A stretch of DNA of 34,470 bases from a virus, in IMG/VR virus record IMGVR_UViG_3300032073_000103, positions 1 to 34,470 of that record. The stretch is one strand, 5' to 3'. The notes beneath the pieces are model-generated. The model ran no database searches, was not told where the DNA came from, and was given only the letters and a program-made list of their open reading frames with translations. How positions within the stretch are numbered: position 1 is the stretch's first letter; each line of letters starts with the position of its first letter. A program made the translations under genes and the position numbers. Below, piece after piece: positions 3,041-34,470 of this stretch.

Positions 3041-3068
3041 TAAATAATAATATGCACCAATAAAACAC

Positions 3069-3710
3069 ATGGGGCGTAGTTGTACTAAATGTGATAAAAA
3101 ACATTATGCCAAAGACCTATGTAAAAATCATTATGAAAAAACTGATGAAGCAAAGGCGAAAAGGAATAAAATAAATCAAAGACCTAAAAATAAAACACGA
3201 AAAAATAATTATAATTTAAAATACCATAAAAAAAATAGAGATACTTTATTATTAAAAATGAGAGAAAGGTATCAAAACCTCACACCTGAACAAATAGAAT
3301 CAGAAAGACTTCGTGGTAAACAAAGAACTGCTAATGGTGAATATAGTAACTATCATAAAAACAATAAAGATAAACGTAATGCTGAGTCTAAACAATGGCA
3401 TTTAGATAACCCAACATATCGTTCTGAATGGGCTAAAGCAAATCCGATAAAGCGTTTAAGAATTGAACAAAGATATGATAAAAAACATTCAAAGTTCTAT
3501 AATAAAATACAATTAAAATCATGGGGTGACTTTATCAAATATATCTTTCCAAGATGTATCAACTGTGGTTCAACCAAACAACTTGAATCTCATCACATAT
3601 TACCTAGAGCTCAGTTTCCTGAACTTGCACTTGCACCTGACAACGGTGTAACCCTATGCAAGAAATGTCATAATGAGATAACACAGTTGTTAAAGAAGTT
3701 TTACGCCTAG
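3069..3710 (+). CDS. HNH endonuclease, probably free-standing homing nuclease
   Basis: The 213-aa protein has an N-terminal zinc motif (CTKCDKKHYAKDLCKNHY) and a long Lys/Asn-rich basic middle. The C-terminal HNH domain reads CINC, ESHHILPRA, DNGVTLCKKCHNEI, with the catalytic His pair and both zinc-binding CxxC pairs. HNH nucleases cut DNA with a metal ion. The gene sits alone between membrane-protein genes and is visibly richer in A and AAA codons than its neighbours. This suggests a mobile homing endonuclease that arrived by transfer. A role in virus packaging is possible but less likely here. Confidence 0.85.
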   Translation: MGRSCTKCDKKHYAKDLCKNHYEKTDEAKAKRNKINQRPKNKTRKNNYNLKYHKKNRDTLLLKMRERYQNLTPEQIESERLRGKQRTANGEYSNYHKNNKDKRNAESKQWHLDNPTYRSEWAKANPIKRLRIEQRYDKKHSKFYNKIQLKSWGDFIKYIFPRCINCGSTKQLESHHILPRAQFPELALAPDNGVTLCKKCHNEITQLLKKFYA

Positions 3711-3732: not shown

Positions 3733-3756
3733 TAGAATTATTTGAGAGTAAGCATA

Positions 3757-4023
3757 ATGGTCGAGAATAACATTATGGCTTTAGTTGGTGCTTTTATAGG
3801 CATTGCCATACTATTAGGAATCGGTACACAAATCTTAGGCAATTCAGTCCAAGACTGTACTAACCTCTCTGATTATGACAGCACAAGTGGTGCAACCCAA
3901 ACAGGTTGGGCAGCCCAATGTGAAGCAAACAATGAACAAACTCAAAATGCATACGCATTATTGATTATTGTATTAATTGTAATTGCAGCAGTCGTAATTT
4001 TGACAGTAGTCAAGATGTTATAA
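3757..4023 (+). CDS. Candidate major coat protein, 88 aa, two membrane helices
   Basis: The protein has two strongly hydrophobic helices, about residues 7-28 (ALVGAFIGIAILLGIGTQIL) and 66-87 (ALLIIVLIVIAAVVILTVV). A polar loop between them has two Cys (VQDC, AAQC) that may form a disulfide. Short alpha-helical hairpin proteins of this layout are the coat proteins of archaeal spindle-shaped viruses (fuselloviruses, His1, Nitrosopumilus spindle viruses). ATG 3757 is preferred to the upstream TTG because of TATA spacing. It has its own promoter and a T-rich terminator-like end. The coat role is an inference from topology and context. Confidence 0.65.
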   Translation: MVENNIMALVGAFIGIAILLGIGTQILGNSVQDCTNLSDYDSTSGATQTGWAAQCEANNEQTQNAYALLIIVLIVIAAVVILTVVKML

Positions 4024-4092: not shown

Positions 4093-4362
4093 ATGAGTAG
4101 CCTTATCTTTCTAGGATTTTCGGTTATACTTTTTATAATTTCCTATGGTATCATGTTCACTATTGCACCAATGATACTTGGTTCTGTATTTACTGTCATG
4201 GAAAACAATCTGACTAACGGTTCAATGACACAGGAATGGATTGATATGTATAATCAGACCAAAGAAACTACACAGTATTTGATTCCATTGATTCCAAGTA
4301 TAGGAATATTCATTCTAGTAATCAAAGTCTTAATGGTTGCAAGTGCTAGAGGACGAGACTAA
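4093..4362 (+). CDS. 89-aa membrane protein with two helices
   Basis: Hydrophobic helices occupy about residues 3-33 and 62-84 with a polar loop holding N-x-T/S sites (NNLTNGS, NQT). Size and topology match the preceding candidate coat protein, but sequence identity is not evident. It could be a second or minor virion protein. An AT-rich TTAAATAAC lies about 37 bp upstream, implying a short leader. The following adhesin gene starts 2 bases after its stop. Confidence 0.75.
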   Translation: MSSLIFLGFSVILFIISYGIMFTIAPMILGSVFTVMENNLTNGSMTQEWIDMYNQTKETTQYLIPLIPSIGIFILVIKVLMVASARGRD

Positions 4363-4363
4363 A

Positions 4364-7300
4364 ATGTCTAAGACATTACTTGTCATACCTGTACTGCTAG
4401 TGTTACTTTTAGTTCCTACAAATGTATTTGCACAAACTGATTTCGGTGTAACAAGCGATCTGACAGTTGAGGGACTTGAATCATTTCCTAATATTGTAAT
4501 GACACCACCACAAGAAATTGAGATAACCACACCGATAACAGGATTAATGACATTACCCGAAGAACGAATCGAATCATTCACTTTTGAGAAATTCCAAGAC
4601 GGTTTCACATGGGAATTAGATGAGGATGGATTTTTGTATCAACAATGGGATGAACTAGGAACAAACCCTGAACCAAAACCTGAATATCCACAAGTCACAG
4701 AAAACTACACCATTGTACAAAATGAAGATGGCACATACACTTTTGCAACACATAGTCCGTATATCTCAGATGGATATGATTGGAAGCCATACATTCTAGG
4801 TGAGGATGAAAACGTAGTTCAGATACAAATTGCTGGTGGAACTATTGTCTTTGACAAAGTATCTGGTGCAGTTACAATATTCAATGAATATGAAACTGTA
4901 ATTGATTCTGACAGTTACAGTGTAAGAACTGCATTGATTGGTTCTGATGTTTGGACTAACCTTAATGTGAACAATACTGATGTTGAAACTACCGTTGTAG
5001 AGGATGGCGACAAAGTAACAGTTTCATTTATTCGTGAAAATGACGAGGGTAAGTTTACAACTGAATATGTAATATACAGTGGAAAGATAAAGACAACTGC
5101 TTACTTTACAAATTATATTTATGAAAATAACAAGTTTGCATTTACACAAACTTTGGACTTGCCTGACAATATAGTTTCTGTAAACAACATGGATGATATT
5201 GATCTAACTGATTATGTTGGAGTATCTTTTGACCGAACAACACTTGAAGAAAATGAGGATTTAATTTTAGAGATAAAGGACATCTACTATAACTCAGGAC
5301 TAGGATTTGATAACCTATGGAGTGTCAATGTTATAACTCCAACTAAAGTGGCACTTGATTATGCCAACGTAGAACAAACACAAACTGTGATAGGCGATAC
5401 AGTAGAATTAGATCCAATATATACTGTAAATCATATAGGTACTATGTCCCCAGCTCAAAGCACTTCATCATACGGTAACTCACAGGGCGATAGTCTAGGA
5501 TGTGGTGGTCGAATTGCTTCGGGTGATCAGGGGTACAACATTACATGGAACTTGAGAAACTATGTAGGTTCTTGGTACACTTGGAACGGATGTAGAACAG
5601 CTATGGTCGGATTTGATTTGGCTGGAATACCTGACACAGCAGTAATATCTGACACCAAATTAGTATATGATATTACATCATCTAGTAATGCTGGAACTTT
5701 TGACCTCAATCAAATGACACAATCAGGACAAGATGGATGGGGTTTGCATAATTATGATACAAGTCAGGCAGTTGGTACAAATCCATACTCAGTTTACGAC
5801 ACAGCAAACTATGATAAAACATGGGAAATGTACTTAGACGCTAACAACTTGGGTACACAGCCTAACGGTGCTGGAAGTAATTACGCTTCCAATTTATCAT
5901 CTGCTGTGGGTACTTATGTAACGGACTTGGGGTCTGCTGGTAATGCAGATGTTCAGGCACAACTAAATGACTCGACTTCTGTTAATGGTGTTGGGGAGTG
6001 GTTTGGAATTGGTATGCCATATTCAGCCATGAAAACTGGTGCAACTGCTTCTAATAACTGGACAAGTCAAACCGTTCAAACTGTTTCCACACAGGACATG
6101 AACTTTGACAATGTAAATTTATTGATAACATTTTCTTCACCACCAACAGAACCAACTAATGTCACTACAACTGCTAACGGTTCAAACGTTGATTTATCTT
6201 GGAGTGCAAGTGAAACTCTTTCAGATTACATAGAATCATCTTCCGCAAAAACATACGTTGTACCCGTAGCACTTCCTGCAACTTGGTCACTTTGGCAGGG
6301 TGGTGCTAGTCCAACAACTCCAACAATGGGTGTGGGTGGCGTACTTGGAACTGCCTTTGACTTTAACGGTTCTACGGATATGGTCGGTGAAAATTTTGTT
6401 ACAAGTGATTTCGCTTCAAACTCACAGGGTTCAATATCAATATGGATAAAACCTGAAGCAAGTGGGTCTAGTGTAGGCAATCCGTTTGGTGGCACAGGAT
6501 TTCAATCATACTGGATAACCAATACCCCATTGTGGTCAGCATATCCATCAAACTCCTTTAACATGGGATCCCTTTATTCTAATGCCAATGCATTTACAAT
6601 GAACGCATGGAATCATGTTGTAGTTACGATTGATTCAACAACGTCAAACAATACAACCGTTGTTTACGTTAATGGTTCGCCAGTTCAAATGTATAATTAT
6701 CCAAGTGGTACGGGTGGTGGTTCTGCAAGTAGTTCCAACTCAAAGACAGCAAGTAACTTGTTGGCAAATACAATACTAGGCGGACAATACCATCCAAGTC
6801 CGCAATTCAAATATCCGTTTGACGGAAAGATAGACGAAGTTTCCTCATGGGATAAAGTGTTATCACAAACTGAGGTTACAACTTTGTATAACTCAGGTAA
6901 TGGTAATACCCCTGACAGTATCAACTCAAACAACAATCTGATTACTTACTTCCCTTTAGATAATACTTCTACACCTCTGCCAAACATGGCAGTAACATCT
7001 GATCCTGTAACTGTAACGTATGATGTAAAGCGTGACGGTACAAGTGTAGGAACCACGACCAATACTTCATTTACAGATACTACTACTGCTTACGGTACAC
7101 CTTATCTTTTTAGTTTGACAGCTTCCACAAGTAATGGAAGTACATCAACAACAAATTTCCCAATTACACTTACAATTCCAGCACCAACTGGATTGACCGC
7201 AACATTGAACATACCTAACGTTGATCTGTCATGGACTGGTGTAAGTAGTGCAACAGGTTACAAGATTGAACATAGTACGGATGGCACAACTTGGAGTACC

Positions 7301-10300
7301 TTAGTTGCAAATACTGGAAATACAAACACAACTTATTCTGATACTGTACCGACACCAAACACAGTAAATTATTATCAGGTCAGGACATTGATAGGTTCTG
7401 CTGAATCAAATGCTATTTATGATTCAACTACAATCACGCCAGTTAATTACAGAACATATACTGCAACTGCAAGTGCAACAACTTGTGATACTGGAACATT
7501 GTATGCTGATGGTACACATGAAACAGGTATGCCAGCTCAAAATGGTGGAAACAGGTATTGTCTTGTAACTTCAATGGAATACGACATATCTGCAATTCCT
7601 GATACTTCAACAATTACAAGTGCAGTTATTGAAGAAACCCATTCTATTTGGACTTCTGGATTTTCCCCATCTTGTGATTACAAATCCAATATGTCACAAC
7701 AGCCATCAACATCAACCACACAACAAAAATGGGATTCTGTAATAGCTGGTACAGTATATGCAAATGATCCAAACTGTATTTCAGGTTATACAAGTGGAAC
7801 TGCGTATGATGTGCCATTAAGTTCACAGGCTATAACAGATATAGAAACGCAGTTATCAGGGGATTGGTTTGGAATTAATTGGGCTATTGATAATTTCCCA
7901 AGCCTTGCCAACGCTGGAACTGGGGGCACACCAGCTAGTGTTACAGGTGGAACATCATTACTAAAATTAGAATATTCCTATATACCACCATCAGCCAATG
8001 CCACAGTTGGTGGCGTACCATCTGCACCAACTGGATTGACAGCAACTTTCAATACAACTACTGCTGACATTGACTTGGCTTTCACAGCACCAGCAAATAA
8101 TAACGGAAGTGCAGTTATTGGTTACAAAGTTGAAGTCTCAACTGACAATGCAACTTGGAGTACGGTCACTGCTGACACTGGAAACACAAACACAACTTAC
8201 ACAGATCTAAATCCTACAATGGGAAGTTTGAATTACTACAAAGTTTCTGCAATTAACGCATACGGAACTGGTGCAGTTTCAAACATAGACAATGACATGG
8301 CTGGGGTTCCACCTGACGCACCGACAATTACCTCAACCTCAACAGACAATCCAAACACAACACCTTTGGAAATTACAGTTAACTGGACAGCACCAACAAA
8401 TACTGGAACGGCTGGAATTACAAACTATGAGGTCTATCGTGACGGTACATTGGTAACGACAGTTGGTAATGTTACAAGTTATACTGATACAGTTCCAACT
8501 GGCGGTGGCACGTTTGTTTATTCATTAAAATCTGTAACACCACATGGAACTTCTGTATTGTCTGCAACTGCTTCACATACTACACCAACAGTACCACCAG
8601 CACCAACTTCAGCACCTACACTTGCAATAGCAAACCCTGACTCAAATCCGTTTGACGTAACATTGTCATGGTCTTTGCCAAGTTCAGGGGGATCGGCAAT
8701 CACATCATTTGAGGTCTTTAGAAGTACAGATGATATAACCTACTCAAGCGTAGGCAATACTTCACAGTTAATCTTCTATGACACTGTACCAAATGTCGGT
8801 ACATTCTATTACAAGTTTTCAAGCATTAACTTGGTAGGCAATTCAGTTCAGTCGCCTTCAAGTAATATCGCAACACCTACCGAACCAGTTGCAGACTCTA
8901 GTGTCACACTGGCAATCAACAGTCCTGATCCAAGTCCTTTGGATATTACAATAAGCATTGTAGCACCAAGTGGTAACGGTGGTTCTGCAATTACTGGATA
9001 TAACTTGCACTCATCAAATGACGATATAACTTACACACAGATCGCTACCAATGTCACAACAGATCAGACAGTGACAGTATCTTCGGCTGGAACTTGGTAC
9101 ATTAAATCACAGGCAATCAATAACGCTGGAACTGCTGGACTTGGAAGTGCAACAAGTATAACCACACCTTCAGTGCCAACTGGTGACGCAAGTGTTACTT
9201 TGGCAATTCCTGACCCTGACAACTTCCCATTTGATTCAACTGCAACTTTTGTAGCACCAAGTGGTAATGGTGGTTCTGCTGTAACTGGTTACAACTTGTA
9301 TTATTCTGATGATGATATAACCTACTCACAGATAGCAACTGCAAGCAACTCTGTTATCAGTCAGACTTTGACTGGTGCTGGAACTCATTACTTTAAAGTT
9401 GAAAGCATAAACAATGTAGGAACTTCAGCACTCAGTTCGGCAATAACCATTGACACACCAACTGTACCTTCATCTGACGCAAGTGCAACATTGGCAATCA
9501 ACAATCCTAACCCAAGTCCTTTGACAATAACTGCGACACTGGTTGCACCTTCATCTGACGGTGGCAGTGCAGTAACAAACTATAACTTGTGGATTTCAAA
9601 TGACGATATAACTTACACTCAAATCGCAACTGCAATCAACGGAACCTTTGATCAGACAGTAAGTCAGTCTGGAACTTATTACTTTAAGGTAGAATCCACT
9701 AACCTAGTTGGCACTGGTGGTCTTGGAAGTGCAACAAGCATAGCCACGCCAACTGTACCAACTGCACCTCAGAACGCAGGCAGTACAATAGCTGACATTG
9801 ACAACGCACCTTATGACGTAACTGTAACATGGGAAACACCTTCATCAACTGGCGGTTCTGACTTGACACAGTATAACGTTTACAGAAAACAAGGCAGTAG
9901 TGCATACTCTTTGTTGACAACAACCACTGGTCTAAGTATAACTGACACGGTTCCGACTTCACTAACAACCAACTTTACTTACAAGATTCATTCAGTAAAC
10001 AATGTTGGCGAGTCAACTGCATTTGACGATACGACTATTACAACATTCAATGTGCCTTCAGCACCAACACTTTCAGTTACAACTGGAACTACCGTACTGT
10101 CTTGGAACGTTCCAAGCAGTGACGCAACTGTAAGCAGTTATAAAATTTACAGGGACAACGTTTTGCTTACAACAGTCGGTACTGTTACAACATACTCTGA
10201 CTTTAGCACAATCGTGTTTGGAAACTCTTATGACTTTAAGATAGTCGCAGTATCATCTTTGGGTGACAGTGCTGATTCAAACACTGTAACTACAACGCCT

Positions 10301-11269
10301 GAAACTGAAATTACTGGAATGGTGGCAAGAGGTGTAACTGGAACTGGTGCAGTAATTGACTGGGACGAACCAGCATACTATCAAGGTCAGGTAACTTCGT
10401 ATAACGTGTACTATGGAAACAGTGGAACACCAGCCACAAGTGCTGGAACCACAACCAACACATTTTCTAACTTTGCACCTCAGTTGGACTATGACACAAC
10501 ATACGTCTTTGGTGTAAGTATCAACTCACCTTTAGGCAACTCTGGACTCAGTAACATTGTTGCAATAACAACTAACGTTGATACCAGCATAGTTTCAGCC
10601 GATCCTACAACTGGTGGTGCTGGTTGGTTTGACATTGACTCAGTTAACAATCAGTCAGTTAATGTCATAGAGTTCCAAAGAGAAACTCAGATGATTAGTG
10701 GAAACCTTACTGACACATTACAAGTTGCATACCCTACATGGTGGGACGATATGACTTGTGACGTAGATTACAAGTTCGCACAAAAGACAGAGCAATATGT
10801 CGAGGGTGATGATATGACAGCACAGGTAAACTCAGCTAATGCAGACCAGCAAGTAATAGGATTCCAATTCCAAGAAGTTGACAACGAAGTAATTGAAGTT
10901 CAATGTGCACCTCAGCAAAGTACACAAGATGATGGTGTGTCAGCCAAGTATGTTATGACACAGAACAATCTTGGTGCAGTAGGTGAAGTTGGTACGCCAA
11001 ACATTCCAATAGTTACACAGATTACCAACTTTTCAAACGGAACTTACGGAACTGACGGTGACTTTGGTGCATTAAACATTGTAGGACTGTTTGCAATATT
11101 GATTTCAATGGTAGGATTTAACAGGCTAAACCCAATAGTAGGTGTACTTTTATCAGCCAGTATGATATTTGTATTGTCATGGTTCGGAATTATAACAATA
11201 CCAACTGCCATAATAGGTGCAATAGCATTGGTTATATTCCTAGCATGGGGAGCTACGAGGAATAGATAA
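4364..11269 (+). CDS. Giant 2301-aa surface adhesin (FN3, LamG and DNRLRE-like domains)
   Basis: ATG 4364 gives a signal peptide (MSKTLLVIPVLLVLLLVP...VFAQ). Then come an N-terminal beta domain (about 25-360) and a DNRLRE-like domain (365-590; VGFDLAGIPDTAVISDTKLVYD). An FN3 domain follows with a LamG/concanavalin domain inserted in it (about 650-860; WIKPEAS, KIDEVSSWDKVLS). After another FN3 comes a second DNRLRE-like domain (about 1030-1190). At least nine tandem FN3 repeats follow (about 1215-2075), then a Cys-bearing stalk and two or three C-terminal membrane helices. It is probably the virion spike that recognises glycans of the host surface layer. The next gene overlaps its stop (TAATG). 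Confidence 0.88.
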   Translation: MSKTLLVIPVLLVLLLVPTNVFAQTDFGVTSDLTVEGLESFPNIVMTPPQEIEITTPITGLMTLPEERIESFTFEKFQDGFTWELDEDGFLYQQWDELGTNPEPKPEYPQVTENYTIVQNEDGTYTFATHSPYISDGYDWKPYILGEDENVVQIQIAGGTIVFDKVSGAVTIFNEYETVIDSDSYSVRTALIGSDVWTNLNVNNTDVETTVVEDGDKVTVSFIRENDEGKFTTEYVIYSGKIKTTAYFTNYIYENNKFAFTQTLDLPDNIVSVNNMDDIDLTDYVGVSFDRTTLEENEDLILEIKDIYYNSGLGFDNLWSVNVITPTKVALDYANVEQTQTVIGDTVELDPIYTVNHIGTMSPAQSTSSYGNSQGDSLGCGGRIASGDQGYNITWNLRNYVGSWYTWNGCRTAMVGFDLAGIPDTAVISDTKLVYDITSSSNAGTFDLNQMTQSGQDGWGLHNYDTSQAVGTNPYSVYDTANYDKTWEMYLDANNLGTQPNGAGSNYASNLSSAVGTYVTDLGSAGNADVQAQLNDSTSVNGVGEWFGIGMPYSAMKTGATASNNWTSQTVQTVSTQDMNFDNVNLLITFSSPPTEPTNVTTTANGSNVDLSWSASETLSDYIESSSAKTYVVPVALPATWSLWQGGASPTTPTMGVGGVLGTAFDFNGSTDMVGENFVTSDFASNSQGSISIWIKPEASGSSVGNPFGGTGFQSYWITNTPLWSAYPSNSFNMGSLYSNANAFTMNAWNHVVVTIDSTTSNNTTVVYVNGSPVQMYNYPSGTGGGSASSSNSKTASNLLANTILGGQYHPSPQFKYPFDGKIDEVSSWDKVLSQTEVTTLYNSGNGNTPDSINSNNNLITYFPLDNTSTPLPNMAVTSDPVTVTYDVKRDGTSVGTTTNTSFTDTTTAYGTPYLFSLTASTSNGSTSTTNFPITLTIPAPTGLTATLNIPNVDLSWTGVSSATGYKIEHSTDGTTWSTLVANTGNTNTTYSDTVPTPNTVNYYQVRTLIGSAESNAIYDSTTITPVNYRTYTATASATTCDTGTLYADGTHETGMPAQNGGNRYCLVTSMEYDISAIPDTSTITSAVIEETHSIWTSGFSPSCDYKSNMSQQPSTSTTQQKWDSVIAGTVYANDPNCISGYTSGTAYDVPLSSQAITDIETQLSGDWFGINWAIDNFPSLANAGTGGTPASVTGGTSLLKLEYSYIPPSANATVGGVPSAPTGLTATFNTTTADIDLAFTAPANNNGSAVIGYKVEVSTDNATWSTVTADTGNTNTTYTDLNPTMGSLNYYKVSAINAYGTGAVSNIDNDMAGVPPDAPTITSTSTDNPNTTPLEITVNWTAPTNTGTAGITNYEVYRDGTLVTTVGNVTSYTDTVPTGGGTFVYSLKSVTPHGTSVLSATASHTTPTVPPAPTSAPTLAIANPDSNPFDVTLSWSLPSSGGSAITSFEVFRSTDDITYSSVGNTSQLIFYDTVPNVGTFYYKFSSINLVGNSVQSPSSNIATPTEPVADSSVTLAINSPDPSPLDITISIVAPSGNGGSAITGYNLHSSNDDITYTQIATNVTTDQTVTVSSAGTWYIKSQAINNAGTAGLGSATSITTPSVPTGDASVTLAIPDPDNFPFDSTATFVAPSGNGGSAVTGYNLYYSDDDITYSQIATASNSVISQTLTGAGTHYFKVESINNVGTSALSSAITIDTPTVPSSDASATLAINNPNPSPLTITATLVAPSSDGGSAVTNYNLWISNDDITYTQIATAINGTFDQTVSQSGTYYFKVESTNLVGTGGLGSATSIATPTVPTAPQNAGSTIADIDNAPYDVTVTWETPSSTGGSDLTQYNVYRKQGSSAYSLLTTTTGLSITDTVPTSLTTNFTYKIHSVNNVGESTAFDDTTITTFNVPSAPTLSVTTGTTVLSWNVPSSDATVSSYKIYRDNVLLTTVGTVTTYSDFSTIVFGNSYDFKIVAVSSLGDSADSNTVTTTPETEITGMVARGVTGTGAVIDWDEPAYYQGQVTSYNVYYGNSGTPATSAGTTTNTFSNFAPQLDYDTTYVFGVSINSPLGNSGLSNIVAITTNVDTSIVSADPTTGGAGWFDIDSVNNQSVNVIEFQRETQMISGNLTDTLQVAYPTWWDDMTCDVDYKFAQKTEQYVEGDDMTAQVNSANADQQVIGFQFQEVDNEVIEVQCAPQQSTQDDGVSAKYVMTQNNLGAVGEVGTPNIPIVTQITNFSNGTYGTDGDFGALNIVGLFAILISMVGFNRLNPIVGVLLSASMIFVLSWFGIITIPTAIIGAIALVIFLAWGATRNR
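8880..9760 (+). repeat. Near-identical FN3 repeat units inside the adhesin gene
   Basis: Three successive units of about 290 bp start near 8880, 9175 and 9465. They share long DNA stretches, for example GTAGCACCAAGTGGTAA at about 8960 and 9250, and the peptide pattern SNDDITYTQIAT. DNA-level similarity higher than in the flanking FN3 units points to recent duplication or recombination. Confidence 0.75.
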
Positions 11270-11823
11270 TGGTCAATCTTAATGAAATAGCCATGTTTAC
11301 AATCATCTTTGCATACGTTACGTCTTTTGCATTTTTAGGTGTACAGGATTCAGTAGGTGATCTTGTCGGTGTGGACATGAAAGCATTTGATGTTACTACT
11401 GGTGGGTTCACAGGCGAAACAATAAAAACAGAGATACAGACAATGACAGATACCTTTGCTGGTTGTTATGACAATCAGACACCACCTGTATTAATTGGTG
11501 GTTTTAACAATCCAACTTACCCTGACGAAGCCAGTTGCAATACGGCTCAATATAACTGGGAAGTGGGTACGGGTTCATCTTTCTCACAAATGTCTGCTCA
11601 AACTGCTCGTATGCAGTTGACAATGGCTGACGAACCATCTATCACAAACAATCCAATCACAAGTGCAACGACAATGATATTTCAACTGTTCCAAATTGTA
11701 ACTGGAACCTACGCATTTAACCTGTTAATATTCATGGGTATTCCTCACATATTTGTAGTCGGCATTACGGCTGTATATGTCATATTATTAGCAATCTATG
11801 TCTTTGAGAAACTACACCCATGA
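11269..11823 (+). CDS. 184-aa membrane protein, partner of the adhesin
   Basis: The start overlaps the adhesin stop by one base. The protein has an N-terminal hydrophobic helix (about residues 8-26). A polar middle with Cys (AGCYDN, ASCNTA) follows, and then two C-terminal membrane helices (about 138-178). The paired helices resemble the C-terminus of the adhesin in layout. It probably anchors or chaperones the spike in the membrane. No family is recognised. A tiny ORF overlaps its stop by ATGA. Confidence 0.8.
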   Translation: MVNLNEIAMFTIIFAYVTSFAFLGVQDSVGDLVGVDMKAFDVTTGGFTGETIKTEIQTMTDTFAGCYDNQTPPVLIGGFNNPTYPDEASCNTAQYNWEVGTGSSFSQMSAQTARMQLTMADEPSITNNPITSATTMIFQLFQIVTGTYAFNLLIFMGIPHIFVVGITAVYVILLAIYVFEKLHP

Positions 11824-12271: not shown

Positions 12272-12308
12272 ACAACATTAATTAACTTAGTAAGCTTTGA
12301 TTATATCA

Positions 12309-15300
12309 ATGGTAAAATCTGCACAGGAAAAAGTATTAGAGAAAAAATATGCAGAAGCAGTATCAGGTAAAGACAAAGAAATACATGACGCACAGATTGA
12401 AGTTTATGAAGGACAAGTCACTGAAGCTAGGGACGCATATTATGAAGCAACTGAAAAACGATCTAAGGCTAGATCAAAACTTCCTAAAGACATTCCTGAA
12501 GAAAGTGAAATAAAAGAAAAATTACTTGAAGCACAATATATCAAAAGAAATATTTCCAGTCCGACTGAACGTGAACAAATAAGTGAATATGAAAAATCTA
12601 TATCTGATTACAGAGTTCATAAAAAGACTGTCAGTGTTTTAGACAAAGAGATACCACAGTTAAAAATACAAGCTGAAGAAGAAGTTAAAACAGTCAACCG
12701 TAAAATACAAAAGGCAAAGGAAACAGAAACAGTAAAACAGGATTCGCTTATAGAGGGGTATTCAAGTCAGATAAGTGCAATAAGAAAAGCAGAATATGTT
12801 TCACAAAAGAAGCAACAGTCATTGATAGTTTCTGAAGCAACTGCGTTGGTCAAGAAAGAGGACGCAAGACTTGAACAAAAACGTATTGCCGAAGAAGCAA
12901 AGGCATTAAAATTAAAACAAGAAGCTGATGTAAGACAAAAAGCATTTGATGAGATGAAAGGTGGTGGTAAAACAGCAGGGAAACAAATACATTACGGAAG
13001 ATACCCTAACATACCTTACGGACATGGTGAGATTTCACCAGCACCGCCAAGTAGAGGAACCAAAGGTGGTAAAATATACTGGATTATTGAAGATAGTTAT
13101 TATCAAAGAGCTGGTTCAATATTGGGTATCTCAGCAGAACAAGCCCGTAGCGTAGCAAGACATGGCATGGTTACTGGTTCAGGAAAATCAAGAGATAAAG
13201 CATTACGATCAGTTCAGGATTCTATTGACGGTGGCAATAGGGCAGAACAATACGCACAGCACAGGGCACTGGCAAAAAAGACAACTGCGTCTGCTTATGG
13301 AAATATGTCAGCACAGGAAAAGCTTACCAGTTCTGCAACGGCTACAATGTTTGCAACCAATCACAATATGTCTGCTTCAGAAATATCACAAAAGAAAGAA
13401 GCAAAGAAGGTAGTTCTACTTGAAGCAGTTTATGACGCAACCAATGGACGGTTAGGTAGCAAAAAAGGAGAAACAACAAAACAGGGTGAAGGAACATTTC
13501 AAGTGTTTGAGAAAGACGGAACCAATGTCACTGACAAAGTTATACCAATTATTAACAAACAGAGGGAAACAGAACTTGCCAATGCAAGGCAACAGCAATA
13601 CATTTCTGAACTTCGTGCTGGTAATATCGGACTTGCAAGGGCTTTATTAGATCCACAGACAAAGCAGACCTACACAAATTCTACAATGAACACTGACAAG
13701 TTTTTGACAGAACGGGGATATGATACTTCAAAACCTGATACGATTCCTAACAATCTTTTTAGTCCTGACTATAATGAAAAACTTACAGAAGCAAGGCAGA
13801 CCACTCAGGGTGATCTTAGAACTGCGACTTCAGGTTATACTGGAAAAACAAACCAGCCTTATACAATGCCAAAGGCTTCAATGAAAGTCCAGACAAAAAG
13901 AAAGGAAGCACAGGCAGTAATAGCAAAGTTTGATCCTAAGCCAATGGATCAGTTCAAGGCAAAAGATTCGTCATACGTTCCTTCAGTCGGAACTGTCACG
14001 TTAAAAAAGAATGAATTGTTGTCAAAGAAAGAAACTGATGTTTGGGGATTTGACCCTATCGCAAATCAAGTCAACAAAGATATGCAGACTTCTTGGACTG
14101 TGACGGTACAGAAAAAAGGTGCTGAATATACTTCTGACTTTAAGACTAGGGAAGAAGCAGTTTTGTTTAAGAAAAGTCAAGAGAAAGTATTCTCTGGAAC
14201 TGATAATGAATGGTGGAATAAATACAACTATGCACCAGCAGTTGACTCAGGCGAAGTTATACACCCAAGTAAAACTGAAACATGGTCTGATGATATAAGA
14301 CTAGGTGCTGGATATGTTATCACACCGTCTTACAATATTCTTAAAACTGTTTACAACCTGACACAGCCTGAAGATAAACAAGTCCCAATGTTGGCAACTG
14401 CCGAAGACAAGTTAATCGGTGGTACTATCACTGATGTTATGGACGGTACACCGTTAAAAGGTACAGGGGTAACTGGATTTGCTGACTATGTTGTAGAAAA
14501 CCCGTTCAGGGCTGTGGCTGAAGTTCCAAGTGCCGTTGTCACAGGTGTCATGGGTGGCAAGGCAATAACTTATGGAATTAAAGGTGCAAGTATTGGCGTA
14601 AGTGCAACTGCAAAACTTGGAAATAAGATAATTCAAAATAACGCACCTACAATAGTCAAGGTTCCGACTATGGCTGTGATGGGTGCTGGTCAAACAGTTC
14701 AGCGTGTCGGTACAAAAGTATCTTCAATTCCAAGTGTAATTGGAAGTTCTATTATCAGTTATGGTACAATTCCTAAAGCAACAAAATATGGTATGCCATC
14801 ATTTACAATTCCACAACAGGTAGTACGTCAAGGAATTGTAAAACCGTATGACAGTGCGACAATGTTTCAGGGAAGTCGTGTCGGGTTTGGTGCTAAGGCT
14901 AATTTTATTTTGACACCTTCAGGCAGAATGTTTGTAAGACAGTCAACTGATATTGCTGGTGAGATAGGTGCAAAGCCACAGTTCCTAAGCAAACAAGTTG
15001 CCATGTTTGAAAATGAAAACGTTGTAGGGTTTGCAACGAGAGGCAAAATGAAAACAACAAAATATGATATGCCAAAAGAAACCCCGTTCAAGTCTGACGT
15101 ATTTGCACCAACTGACAAAACGAAACTAATTCCAAAAGAAGGACTTCCAAAAGAAAAAAAACCGTTCCCTGAGTTATATGACAGTAAGGCAACTACAAGT
15201 GGAAAGCCGTTCCCTGAGTTAGTCAAAGTTGAGGACATTGGTAAAACCAGTATTCCAAAACTTCAGACACCGACAGTTCTTGACAGAATTAAGTCAACTG

Positions 15301-17018
15301 CATTGTACAAAACAAAAGTCAGTGCAAAGCAGTACAAGACAAACATTGACGAGGTTACGTTTTACTCAGATACAACTGGCGATTTGGTCAAGGGTGTCAA
15401 AAGACCCAAAGCCGAATTGCAAGGCGAGGGTGTCAATTACAGGGGATTTAAAAAGCCTGAGATAACTGGAACTAGAACAAGACTTCAGGACTACAAGACT
15501 TCAACAAGTCAGTCAACAATCAAAGGTCAGCTAAAGTATTCTGAAGTGGCTGGTGGCAAGATAAAATTCAAGGGAAGTCCAGTAAGACAAGTTGATACGA
15601 TAGTCACTGGTGCAAAACTTACTGGCAAAAAGAACTTGAAACTGATTGACGACATGGCAAAAGAAGGACAGATTGAAGAAATTGGAAAGAAGACTGTAAT
15701 GAAGGGGACTGATTATTTCGGGGGTGGCAAGAAGGCTGGTCAGTTAAAACAGTCATTGGAAAGCAGAAACCCTACAACGTATGAAGCCAAAAGTGGAAAG
15801 ATAAAACCAAAAGATGAAACAATACTTTACGGTGTAAGCAATAGAAATATTCCAGTTGACAAAAAGGCTTTCGCACAGACCATGAAAGAGTCAAACCTTC
15901 TTAGAGAAATGGCAGACAAAGCACCATTAAACAAAAAACCTACCGTACCAAAAGGTGTTGACGAACCACCAAAAGAAAAGTATCATGCATTTATCGGTGA
16001 GTCAAAGTCAACTGGTAAGACTTTTCAGGGAACTAGAATTGAACTTGGTTCAGGCATTGGTACAACGGGTGTCGGCAGTAGTTTCACCAAAACAAATGTT
16101 GATTTGGGTAAAGGTGGTGGTATCTCTAACATAAAAGATGTTAAAGGAATGTCTAGCAAACCTGATGTTGTTGGTGTTACAACCAATAGAATAAACGTAA
16201 AAAAGTTTGAAGAACCTAAAATACAAAAAGGTGATAAGATAGTTGACAGTAAAGAGGGGTCAACTGTTACAAGAACAAAACTTGATACATTCCAAGAAAC
16301 CAAAATCAAACTGGGTCAAAGTGCAGTATCAAAACCAGTACAGATACAAGTGCCAAAAGTTAAGGCTAGTGTTAAACCACCAAAGGTTTCGCCAAAAGTT
16401 AAACAGGTTGTCACACCTACTGTAAGTCAGAAAACTGGAACTGGTTTGGTACAAGAAACTGCACAGTTGACCAAACAGCAAACCAAACAAAAACCTAAGA
16501 TTAAACAAGCACAAAGACTTAGAGCAGTTCAAAGTCAAGTCGCTATAACAGCCGTAGTTGCAAAGACAGCACAGGTTCAGGCAGTTGCACAAATGAAACC
16601 ACCTACAATACAAAGAACAGTTACAAGAAAACCAGCAATAGTCATTGACATTAATTTACCTGTACCTGAAAGAAAGCCAAGAAAAAGAAAGCGTGGTAAG
16701 AAGGCTGGGTTCATTGGTAATGTAAGACTTGACAACATCATGGGAATGTACAAGAGAAAAGAAATCACATACGGTCAAAAGAAAGTTACAAAGTTGGAAA
16801 GACAGGACATGAGATTGACGGCTGGAACTAAAAATAGAATTGCACTTCCGTCTTCAGGTCTGCTAAAGACCAAGAAGAAAAAGAAAGGCAAGACAGAAAG
16901 TGTGTTTGGTAGAAGTGTAACAAAAACTAAAGACGAGTTTGTTGGATTTGAATCCAAGCCTAAAAAGAAAACAGTCAAGCGTAAAAAATCCAAATCCACA
17001 AAAGTCAGATTAATGTAG
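12309..17018 (+). CDS. Giant 1569-aa lysine-rich coiled-coil protein, probable virion component
   Basis: I do not recognise a family. Residues 1-225 are charged coiled coil (many E, K, A, Q heptads). A Gly/Tyr-rich segment follows (HYGRYPNIPYGHG). Around residues 715-830 is a region of weak hydrophobic, Gly/Ala-rich helices that could contact membrane. The last 500 residues are Lys/Thr/Gly/Pro-rich and low complexity. The C-terminal 110 residues carry dense basic clusters (RKPRKRKRGKK, KTKKKKKGK, KPKKKTVKRKKSK). A genome-condensing or internal virion protein is inferred. ATG 12309 is used; TTG 12297 in frame is possible. The gene takes 14 percent of the circle. Confidence 0.8.
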   Translation: MVKSAQEKVLEKKYAEAVSGKDKEIHDAQIEVYEGQVTEARDAYYEATEKRSKARSKLPKDIPEESEIKEKLLEAQYIKRNISSPTEREQISEYEKSISDYRVHKKTVSVLDKEIPQLKIQAEEEVKTVNRKIQKAKETETVKQDSLIEGYSSQISAIRKAEYVSQKKQQSLIVSEATALVKKEDARLEQKRIAEEAKALKLKQEADVRQKAFDEMKGGGKTAGKQIHYGRYPNIPYGHGEISPAPPSRGTKGGKIYWIIEDSYYQRAGSILGISAEQARSVARHGMVTGSGKSRDKALRSVQDSIDGGNRAEQYAQHRALAKKTTASAYGNMSAQEKLTSSATATMFATNHNMSASEISQKKEAKKVVLLEAVYDATNGRLGSKKGETTKQGEGTFQVFEKDGTNVTDKVIPIINKQRETELANARQQQYISELRAGNIGLARALLDPQTKQTYTNSTMNTDKFLTERGYDTSKPDTIPNNLFSPDYNEKLTEARQTTQGDLRTATSGYTGKTNQPYTMPKASMKVQTKRKEAQAVIAKFDPKPMDQFKAKDSSYVPSVGTVTLKKNELLSKKETDVWGFDPIANQVNKDMQTSWTVTVQKKGAEYTSDFKTREEAVLFKKSQEKVFSGTDNEWWNKYNYAPAVDSGEVIHPSKTETWSDDIRLGAGYVITPSYNILKTVYNLTQPEDKQVPMLATAEDKLIGGTITDVMDGTPLKGTGVTGFADYVVENPFRAVAEVPSAVVTGVMGGKAITYGIKGASIGVSATAKLGNKIIQNNAPTIVKVPTMAVMGAGQTVQRVGTKVSSIPSVIGSSIISYGTIPKATKYGMPSFTIPQQVVRQGIVKPYDSATMFQGSRVGFGAKANFILTPSGRMFVRQSTDIAGEIGAKPQFLSKQVAMFENENVVGFATRGKMKTTKYDMPKETPFKSDVFAPTDKTKLIPKEGLPKEKKPFPELYDSKATTSGKPFPELVKVEDIGKTSIPKLQTPTVLDRIKSTALYKTKVSAKQYKTNIDEVTFYSDTTGDLVKGVKRPKAELQGEGVNYRGFKKPEITGTRTRLQDYKTSTSQSTIKGQLKYSEVAGGKIKFKGSPVRQVDTIVTGAKLTGKKNLKLIDDMAKEGQIEEIGKKTVMKGTDYFGGGKKAGQLKQSLESRNPTTYEAKSGKIKPKDETILYGVSNRNIPVDKKAFAQTMKESNLLREMADKAPLNKKPTVPKGVDEPPKEKYHAFIGESKSTGKTFQGTRIELGSGIGTTGVGSSFTKTNVDLGKGGGISNIKDVKGMSSKPDVVGVTTNRINVKKFEEPKIQKGDKIVDSKEGSTVTRTKLDTFQETKIKLGQSAVSKPVQIQVPKVKASVKPPKVSPKVKQVVTPTVSQKTGTGLVQETAQLTKQQTKQKPKIKQAQRLRAVQSQVAITAVVAKTAQVQAVAQMKPPTIQRTVTRKPAIVIDINLPVPERKPRKRKRGKKAGFIGNVRLDNIMGMYKRKEITYGQKKVTKLERQDMRLTAGTKNRIALPSSGLLKTKKKKKGKTESVFGRSVTKTKDEFVGFESKPKKKTVKRKKSKSTKVRLM

Positions 17019-32783: not shown

Positions 32784-32951
32784 ATGACTAAGCCCACGAC
32801 TGGAGTGGAAATGGGGGTTTTTTTGGACTCACCAATTCTTATCGGGTCTAAGCCATGCAACGGACTTTTATGTACAAAATCTTATAACAGTCCATTTATG
32901 TACAAAGTTAGGGTGATATGCTATGCCACAGTCCAGACTTCCAGACATTAA
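32784..32951 (+). CDS. Possible 55-aa hypothetical protein
   Basis: ATG follows TTTATATT closely and overlaps the next gene by 29 bases. The frame runs through one of the ACTGGAGTGGAAA repeats, and the composition (MTKPTTGVEMGVF...) shows no domain. It may be chance coding in the regulatory region. Confidence 0.3.
   Translation: MTKPTTGVEMGVFLDSPILIGSKPCNGLLCTKSYNSPFMYKVRVICYATVQTSRH
32867..32906 (+). repeat. Two TTTATGTACAAA direct repeats before the zinc-ribbon/ATPase operon
   Basis: The 12-mer occurs at 32867-32878 and 32895-32906, 28 bp apart. The second is about 24 bp before ATG 32923 and may serve as or overlap the promoter; paired sites suggest a regulator. Confidence 0.6.
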
Positions 32952-33516
32952 TTCTGCGTTCATTAGGTATAGAAGCGAAGCCATTCACGCTTTACAGACT
33001 AAGAACTGGTCTGCCATGCATGGTGCATTAAACGGTATTAACTCATTGTTGCCAGTTGATTATCAGGTTATAATATCAAGCCAAGACTATGAGCAACTGG
33101 CAAAGACTGAGATAACTTATGCTTGTGGCAGTTGTAGTGAATCCATAGACAAGTCTAATGTTCAGGTTTTTGAGCTAATGCCTGACAGTATGCAATCGTT
33201 ACTACATGGTCGAACGTTTAATAAAGTATGGAATTGTATAAAATGTCACAGTACGAATATGTTGAACACTACTGCCATTTCACAGACAATGCTTCAGAAC
33301 CCTACATACTTGGGAATTGTACCTGACCCACCTGAAAGAAAAAATGGACTTATGGATAGAATGAAGTTTAACATAGAGATTGAAAGATGGGGTTGGCTTT
33401 TACTAAACGAAGAAGAATATAAGATGGCAAAGTTTAGAGATGATAACTGGAACAAGGGTGATGAAGAAATGGGTGATATTGACAATTCATTAGATGATAA
33501 AGAGGGCGATACATAA
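32923..33516 (+). CDS. 197-aa zinc-ribbon protein upstream of the ATPase
   Basis: The N-terminal helical part (FIRYRSEAIHALQTKNWSAMHGALN) is followed by a zinc ribbon with widely spaced pairs (CGSC about residue 68, CIKC about 105). The C-terminal part is helical and strongly acidic (GDEEMGDIDNSLDDKEGD). The stop overlaps the ATPase start. A partner or adaptor of the ATPase is inferred from the coupling. No named family is recognised. Confidence 0.75.
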   Translation: MPQSRLPDINSAFIRYRSEAIHALQTKNWSAMHGALNGINSLLPVDYQVIISSQDYEQLAKTEITYACGSCSESIDKSNVQVFELMPDSMQSLLHGRTFNKVWNCIKCHSTNMLNTTAISQTMLQNPTYLGIVPDPPERKNGLMDRMKFNIEIERWGWLLLNEEEYKMAKFRDDNWNKGDEEMGDIDNSLDDKEGDT

Positions 33517-34470
33517 TGCCAATAACCACAACCACAAAAAAGATAGTTGCTAAAGGTGAGAATAAAGCACCATTAACTACTCATTGGAAGGGGGTATCTA
33601 TGGTTAGAAATCATTCGTTTTTGGCAACTGTCAGGGAAATTATTAACTTCAGTGCAGAAATTGACGTATGCAGAATTGGTCTTATTGGTTCAATGCACTC
33701 AGGAAAATCTACGTTAAGTCAGTCCATAGCCCATGCCATACACAAACACGCAGACTTGCAATACAAGATTAAGGTTTTGTATAAAGAAGACTTGTTAAAC
33801 TTTGAAAAGACATTACTGGCATTGGAACCAGTCAACTATATTTTGATATTTGATGATGTATCGTTTATGGGTGCTAGTGCAAACAAGAAACAAATTGAGA
33901 TGGTAAAGTCAGCCGTAACCACAATCAGACATCTGGACGGGGGACGGGACGTTAAGGTTATCGTAATGATGAACTATCACTATTCTATGGGACTTGACAA
34001 ATATCTCAGGTCGGCTGATTTCAAGTATATCACAACGGTAGATTCTTCAGAAAATGAAAATTTGATTAATATGTTTGGTAAAAAATACCAGCAAAAGATT
34101 CTGGACTTTAAAAAGTACAGACACATGGCTATTACCAAAAAGTATTGGCTTATGAAAATATCAAAAGACGGTGGACTATTCAAATATGAATACAGAAACC
34201 CGTTCATTCCTGTGATGTTTTGGAACGAAAACTCGTTACGTTTTATTGTGTCACCTACTAGACAGTGGCAAGACCCGATTTGTTCAAAATGTTCTGAAGC
34301 TACAACTTCAGGCGAATTAGAGTCAGACGTTCCTATTGAACAGTTCTGTCAGGAAACTGAGGAAAAATGGGGTAAGGGAACATGGTTAGCCAGTATCAAA
34401 CTCAATATGTATGTCGAGGGCATGACAGTGTATAATCCCAAAGTCATATCATGTCTAAAGTATCTAAACA
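33516..34470 (+). CDS. Viral P-loop ATPase, N-terminal part (continues at 1-240)
   Basis: Read across the circular join this is a 355-aa protein. Walker A is GSMHSGKST at residues 58-66. Walker B is ILIFDDVS at about 109-116, and a sensor-like MMNYHYS follows near 150. The protein is soluble and has a CSKC pair near residue 258. The start ATG overlaps the stop of the upstream zinc-ribbon gene (TAATG), so the two are co-translated. Known context: most archaeal membrane-containing and spindle-shaped viruses carry one such NTPase for assembly or genome handling. A role in packaging or virion assembly is inferred, and a DnaA-like or regulatory ATPase is the alternative. Confidence 0.85.
   Translation, partial: MPITTTTKKIVAKGENKAPLTTHWKGVSMVRNHSFLATVREIINFSAEIDVCRIGLIGSMHSGKSTLSQSIAHAIHKHADLQYKIKVLYKEDLLNFEKTLLALEPVNYILIFDDVSFMGASANKKQIEMVKSAVTTIRHLDGGRDVKVIVMMNYHYSMGLDKYLRSADFKYITTVDSSENENLINMFGKKYQQKILDFKKYRHMAITKKYWLMKISKDGGLFKYEYRNPFIPVMFWNENSLRFIVSPTRQWQDPICSKCSEATTSGELESDVPIEQFCQETEEKWGKGTWLASIKLNMYVEGMTVYNPKVISCLKYLN
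34344..34470. repeat. Terminal direct repeat (right copy)
   Basis: Second copy of the 127-base exact overlap with 1-127. It lies inside the ATPase coding sequence, in the same frame as the left copy, which supports circular continuity and argues against true virus termini. Confidence 0.93.

Follow-up and report, generated by a model that had tools for sequence, protein, structure and literature searches.

Nested and apparently exchangeable domains in a probable attachment protein of a nipumfusivirus-like virus

INTRODUCTION

In bacterial RTX adhesins such as AhLap, ligand-binding domains bud from Ig-like domains that complete their fold beyond the insert (PMC12077191, PMC10865825), and a vWFA cargo domain that itself hosts an insert is known (PMC12077191). 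In siphophages, the 'evolved' Dit and Tal proteins, which act in virion adhesion, have carbohydrate-binding modules inserted in their loops (PMC7291167), and the spindle-shaped fusellovirus SSV19 degrades a host surface glycan, probably via its tailspike VP4 (PMC12042106). For viruses of ammonia-oxidising archaea, little is known on host recognition. The proposed Nipumfusiviridae (NYMAG-47 and relatives) are putative spindle-shaped viruses of Nitrosopumilaceae with complete genomes of 27-38 kb, a putative 89-aa two-helix major capsid protein (MCP), a zinc-binding protein and an ATPase; the proposed core genes also include three conserved unknown proteins (PMC10866085). Spindle morphology and host were inferred in that study for these related viruses, and no structural similarity was found between SSV19 tail proteins and NYMAG-47 proteins (PMC10866085).

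Here we analyse the whole IMG/VR virus record IMGVR_UViG_3300032073_000103 (34,470 bases; hereafter the window), in which a 2301-aa open frame, P0001, encodes an FN3/LamG protein. As in RTX adhesins, the sequence of a host domain resumes after an inserted one. RTX adhesins, however, are bacterial, type-I-secreted and made of other domain sequences, whereas P0001 is viral, has no RTX families among its Pfam matches (a general rather than RTX-specific search) and carries a C-terminal membrane anchor instead; its family also differs in having up to three inserts per LamG and in the evidence that near-identical viruses have swapped domains. Like Dit/Tal, P0001 is proposed to carry modules in the loops of an adhesion protein, but Dit/Tal belong to tailed phages and hold their inserts in galectin-domain loops of the baseplate hub, and Pfam and PHROG family searches gave no homology to them. 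SSV19 VP4, from a spindle-shaped archaeal virus, is also large and hydrophobic and is presumed to act on glycans of the host surface, but it has an endo-mannanase-like domain. These three systems appear to share only a working principle with P0001, homology not having been found. By this analogy, P0001 would represent split-domain adhesin display in an archaeal virus, more elaborate than in a preliminary description of the locus; the open-licence papers searched contained no such archaeal-virus adhesin.

RESULTS

Genome, gene set and relatives

The window begins and ends with an exact 127-nt direct terminal repeat (1-127 = 34344-34470), and its genome is thus complete, circularly closed or terminally redundant, at about 34.3 kb. 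By ORF reading and family searches, the gene set comprises small membrane proteins with two hydrophobic stretches, a Cys-rich protein adjoining an ATPase-like protein, an integrase, a D5-type primase/helicase and a PAPS-reductase-like protein. The putative MCP, of 89 aa with two hydrophobic helices (4093-4362, + strand), is 97-99% identical in four relatives, and its gene ends just ahead of the adhesin start codon at 4364. A second small membrane protein with two hydrophobic stretches, recognised by ORF reading (3742-4023, + strand; no PHROG match), is a possible capsid component. The Cys-rich, probably zinc-binding protein and the ATPase-like protein (32923-34470, + strand) were recognised by ORF reading and resemble proposed Nipumfusiviridae core genes (PMC10866085); the former has no Pfam match, and the latter, 89-95% identical in four relatives, has a weak Pfam match to DUF815. 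In gene content, this set resembles the proposed Nipumfusiviridae, with the 89-aa two-helix ORF and the Cys-rich and ATPase-like genes as candidate counterparts of the putative MCP, zinc-binding protein and ATPase. The adhesin sets the window apart: it is not described in PMC10866085, and the words fibronectin, LamG, laminin and concanavalin are absent from the main text of that paper. We regard the virus as nipumfusivirus-like, with marine ammonia-oxidising archaea as its probable host.

Beside the capsid genes, the stretch at 3042-3700 contains an HNH endonuclease gene (ORF 3069-3710; Pfam HNH E 1.9e-9) and is absent at the equivalent site in the L002, L005 and L008 viruses, where the flanks are nearly contiguous; it looks like an inserted free-standing endonuclease of the homing type. 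Downstream of the adhesin, a charged 1573-aa protein (12297-17018) is conserved in relatives and has no Pfam or PHROG match.

Scanning IMG/VR with the whole P0001, its C-terminal part and the LamG scaffold described below identified eight further records: L002, L003/L017 (one contig), L004, L005, L008, L010, L011 and L015. No relative was obtained from GTDB scans (one genome per species) that took the C-terminal anchor and the LamG scaffold as queries; these used short exact peptide patterns, which do not exclude distant relatives. Phage records gave at best weak FN3-level matches to Microbacterium and Streptococcus phages. Three candidates (L025, L030 and L031) were dropped as chance or generic FN3 matches from tailed phages.

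Layout of the adhesin

P0001 (4364-11269, + strand, as are all of its features given below) consists of a signal peptide, an FN3 stalk, a nested LamG and a C-terminal membrane anchor, and has homologues in all eight IMG/VR records. Pfam fn3 (PF00041) matches it in six stretches (E 2.4e-23), and a single Laminin_G_3 (PF13385) match covers residues 682-838 (nt 6407-6877, E 2.7e-14), scoring 54 bits against a Pfam cutoff of 27.6. Hydropathy indicates a hydrophobic N-terminus, likely a signal peptide, at residues 1-25 (4364-4438), and a hydrophobic anchor of about three membrane-spanning stretches, highly conserved in relatives, at residues 2232-2300 (11057-11263). Between them lie a variable N-terminal domain (residues 352-592), the split FN3 no. 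1 with its LamG, FN3 no. 2 (7181-7435), and a second non-FN3 domain that is conserved in L002 (residues 1026-1220, 7439-8023; 81% aa identity). These are followed by FN3 nos. 3-5 (8024-8887; unit comparison and FN3 HMM), nos. 6-8, nos. 9-11 (9761-10573), which are conserved in the relatives nearest to the window by FN3 HMM, alignment and tree, and a conserved non-FN3 region ahead of the anchor (10574-11056; 77-87% identical to the window in alignment A1). The two non-FN3 domains were labelled DNRLRE by eye; Pfam gave this label no backing, and we do not rely on it. The gene that overlaps the adhesin stop codon (11269-11823, + strand; comparison with relatives) encodes a membrane protein that varies together with the adhesin, being 93% identical in L002 and 52-55% in L005/L008.

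An FN3 domain split around a LamG domain

The first part of FN3 no. 1, corresponding to strands A-B, occupies residues 593-616 (6140-6211, with a linker to 6247), and the second part residues 874-939 (6983-7180), with the LamG cargo between them (residues 629-873, 6248-6982). Residues 596-616 share 11 of 21 positions with the beginning of FN3 no. 2, a match that was reached by one of 200,000 shuffles and is the best in the whole protein. The piece after the LamG aligns to positions 50-86 of an FN3 HMM derived from window units F3-F11, and with the LamG removed the two joined pieces match Pfam fn3 over positions 2-78 of 84 (E 0.0024, below Pfam's curated cutoff). The 24-residue N-half alone adds little to the HMM score, which 141 of 1000 shuffles equal; because of this weak score, its assignment to FN3 rests on the pairwise match to F2 and on its conservation in L002. 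AlphaFold2 models of the window's split FN3 (A6, mean pLDDT 45.8) and of the nested region in L008 (A7, 34.5) were built on six-row alignments that were too shallow, and both were discarded as evidence, neither supporting nor refuting nesting. Since both models are poor, the evidence for nesting is sequence-based: across the window family, the host-domain sequence resumes after the inserted domain. On these grounds, with the reading frame open and both Pfam families matched, the giant adhesin with a LamG inside its first FN3 proposed in the preliminary description was confirmed.

Exchanged cargo in a conserved frame

When comparing the window with its relative L002, we found that the two halves of FN3 no. 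1 are conserved (first part 81% aa and 76% nt identity, pS 0.42; second part 88% aa and 91% nt, pS 0.15), whereas the LamG between them shares 28% aa and 42% nt identity with its positional counterpart, at a pS of 0.77 that indicates saturated synonymous sites. Given conserved flanking halves around a LamG with saturated synonymous sites, the pattern is the one expected if the LamG cargo was replaced rather than drifted. The L002 domain scores 91 bits against the LamG at scaffold site 1 of L015 (see below), compared with 31 bits against its positional counterpart in the window; the tree places it among the site-1 domains with moderate support (SH-aLRT 94, UFBoot 74). One could instead suppose that the two LamG domains diverged fast under host pressure at a single position, and they are indeed detectably homologous (BLASTP E 3e-17). 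We consider this rather improbable, both in view of the jump in pS relative to the flanks and because the L002 LamG is closer to domains held in other sockets of other viruses.

The variable N-terminal domain upstream of FN3 no. 1 (5417-6139) forms a second exchanged block, with 35% aa and 50% nt identity to L002 and a pS of 0.69, next to adjoining segments with 76% nt identity.

FN3 no. 2, which is intact in the window, aligns with an L002 counterpart that is interrupted by 163 aa just behind the position equivalent to residue 983 (nt 7312). By this alignment, F2 of the two viruses is a direct pair of an empty and a filled site.

Deeper nesting in sister viruses

L005, L008, L015 and L017 each have a large insert that divides an FN3 in two. 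Both halves are detected separately by the FN3 HMM and match complementary parts of it on either side of the insert, and when joined they outscore all 1000 shuffles of either half. The insert in these FN3s contains a LamG scaffold, which other domains in turn interrupt at up to three sites; in L008, the joined scaffold pieces match Laminin_G_3 over positions 8-150 of 151 (E 8.5e-9). Site 1 holds cargo in L005, L008 and L015 but is empty in L017; at site 3, L005, L017, L010 and L011 hold cargo, and the site is empty in L008 and L015. In every record that covers site 2, this site is filled, with differing domains.

All-against-all comparison sorted the cargo into four families. Family A (LamG) includes the F1 cargo of the window and of L002, L005 site 3, L008 site 1 and a domain before the L008 scaffold, and L015 site 1. 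Family B is found at L005 site 1, L008 site 2, L011 site 3 and L015 site 2, and before the scaffold in L015 and L017; family C in L002 F2 and at L017 sites 2 and 3; and family D at L005 site 2 and before its scaffold, at L010 site 3 and, weakly, at L011 site 2. From this distribution, one family can occupy several sockets and one socket can take several families. The family A (LamG) cargo resembles lectin-like modules: among solved sequences it lies nearest to an S-layer-domain protein, an arabinanase domain, sialidase modules and a pentraxin. No significant Pfam or PDB match was obtained for families B, C and D, which may also be binding domains. A family C match to a lactophage receptor-binding head (E 0.013) fell below the cutoff and was not relied on.

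These domains could alternatively lie in series, with the short FN3-like pieces around the LamG acting as linkers rather than forming one split FN3, as might be argued from the failure of AlphaFold2 to assemble the FN3 and from the lack of a significant HMM score added by the window's N-half. Such an arrangement is improbable: it would have to explain why that N-half matches the F2 start, why both pieces are conserved together around unalignable cargo, why F2 occurs as a direct empty/filled pair, and why both halves are detected individually in four other viruses.

FN3 repeats of varying number

FN3 nos. 6-8 (8888-9760, 97 codons each; unit comparison, FN3 HMM and tree) are 61-65% identical in DNA, compared with 37-50% for the other listed FN3 pairs except F2/F3 (57%), so that the three units do stand out as more alike in DNA, as was earlier suggested. 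That their duplications were recent did not hold up: dS among F6-F8 within the window is 0.8-1.7, above the mostly 0.4-0.8 of orthologous segments between the window and L002, and in the tree they form no clade against units of other viruses, with F7 and F8 pairing with weak support. TRF found no tandem array at F6-F8. On identity, dS and the missing clade, the duplications are judged not recent but old, and only the copy number differs among relatives. Between F5 and F9, units of this subfamily number none in L008, L010 and L011, one in L003, two in L002, three in the window and five in L005. The suspected length variation is thus borne out, with 0-5 units across relatives, and the wider proposal of modular growth and of rapid change in the presumed surface-recognition part is strongly supported by cargo exchange, empty and filled sites, deeper nesting and repeat number together.

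A replaced adhesin front in a near-constant background

At the nucleotide level, identity to the window in the putative capsid and ATPase-like genes is 96% and 93% for the L008 virus and 95% and 90% for the L005 virus. In both, similarity of ~92% extends up to nt 4362-4366 (4362 in L008) and then disappears across the whole adhesin front, resuming at nt 8346-8384 (8346 in L008) at about 65-74% through the stalk and following genes and climbing to 85-89% further downstream. Neighbouring genes are thus 92-96% identical to the window, yet the front halves of the adhesins are unrelated, and by this comparison the adhesin block is replaced as a unit in L005/L008.

The 61.6-kb record G002 (IMGVR_UViG_3300024517_000020) carries both L003 and L017, whose adhesin tip segments (L003 1-2367 and L017 8452-10818) are 99.2% identical over 2.37 kb (2274 nt exact) while the stalks and anchors beyond differ. 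It has two ATPase-like genes, 90% and 32% identical to that of the window, and may be a chimera of two viruses or represent two viruses with a recently shared tip; we did not take it as proof of exchange. As G002 appears to join two viruses through this adhesin segment, the mosaic pattern as a whole might be ascribed to assembly chimeras. This is very improbable, given that the window is a closed record with a terminal repeat and that several independent contigs show the same pattern, with the reading frame kept each time.

DISCUSSION

Taken together, P0001 is probably the host-attachment protein, with nested cargo, of a nipumfusivirus-like and putatively spindle-shaped virus of ammonia-oxidising archaea. 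Its reading as an attachment protein draws on the analogy with RTX adhesins, Dit proteins and SSV19 VP4, and its context includes a gene position directly behind the putative capsid gene and a conserved anchor. In the mechanism that we propose, the signal peptide would export P0001, the C-terminal anchor would hold it in the virion membrane or tail, and an FN3 stalk of variable unit number would carry the N-terminal part. Lectin-type cargo, inserted into FN3 loops rather than placed in series, would bud sideways and could be exchanged by recombination without breaking the fibre, and in sister viruses the inserted LamG is itself a scaffold that offers three more sites for inserts. On this analogy, recognition of host surfaces is plausible: a location on the virion, binding to host surface glycans or glycoproteins, recombination as the mechanism and a change of host range as the benefit would be in keeping with it.

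A protein of this build might instead sit on the surface of an infected or lysogenised cell, acting in cell adhesion or superinfection exclusion rather than in virion attachment. The signal peptide and membrane anchor would fit that role equally well, and the window genome has an integrase. We nevertheless regard it as unlikely, because the gene is tightly linked to the putative capsid gene, all eight related records searched carry the adhesin, a variable front with a constant anchor is typical of attachment proteins, and the pattern search of GTDB species genomes gave no relative of the anchor.

For the attachment protein as a family, we lean slightly towards a plug-in platform, in which fixed FN3 and LamG sockets would display swappable cargo to three levels (FN3, LamG within FN3, and cargo within LamG), exchanged by recombination between archaeal viruses with near-identical capsid proteins. 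The comparison maps fixed frame residues, exchangeable cargo and socket positions, all of which are testable, and the natural pairs of empty and filled sites are useful for studying how a fold tolerates whole inserted domains. The comparison also suggests that split-domain display may have arisen independently in a virus, and the nested, swappable cargo suggests a plug-in way of changing the target of viral attachment.
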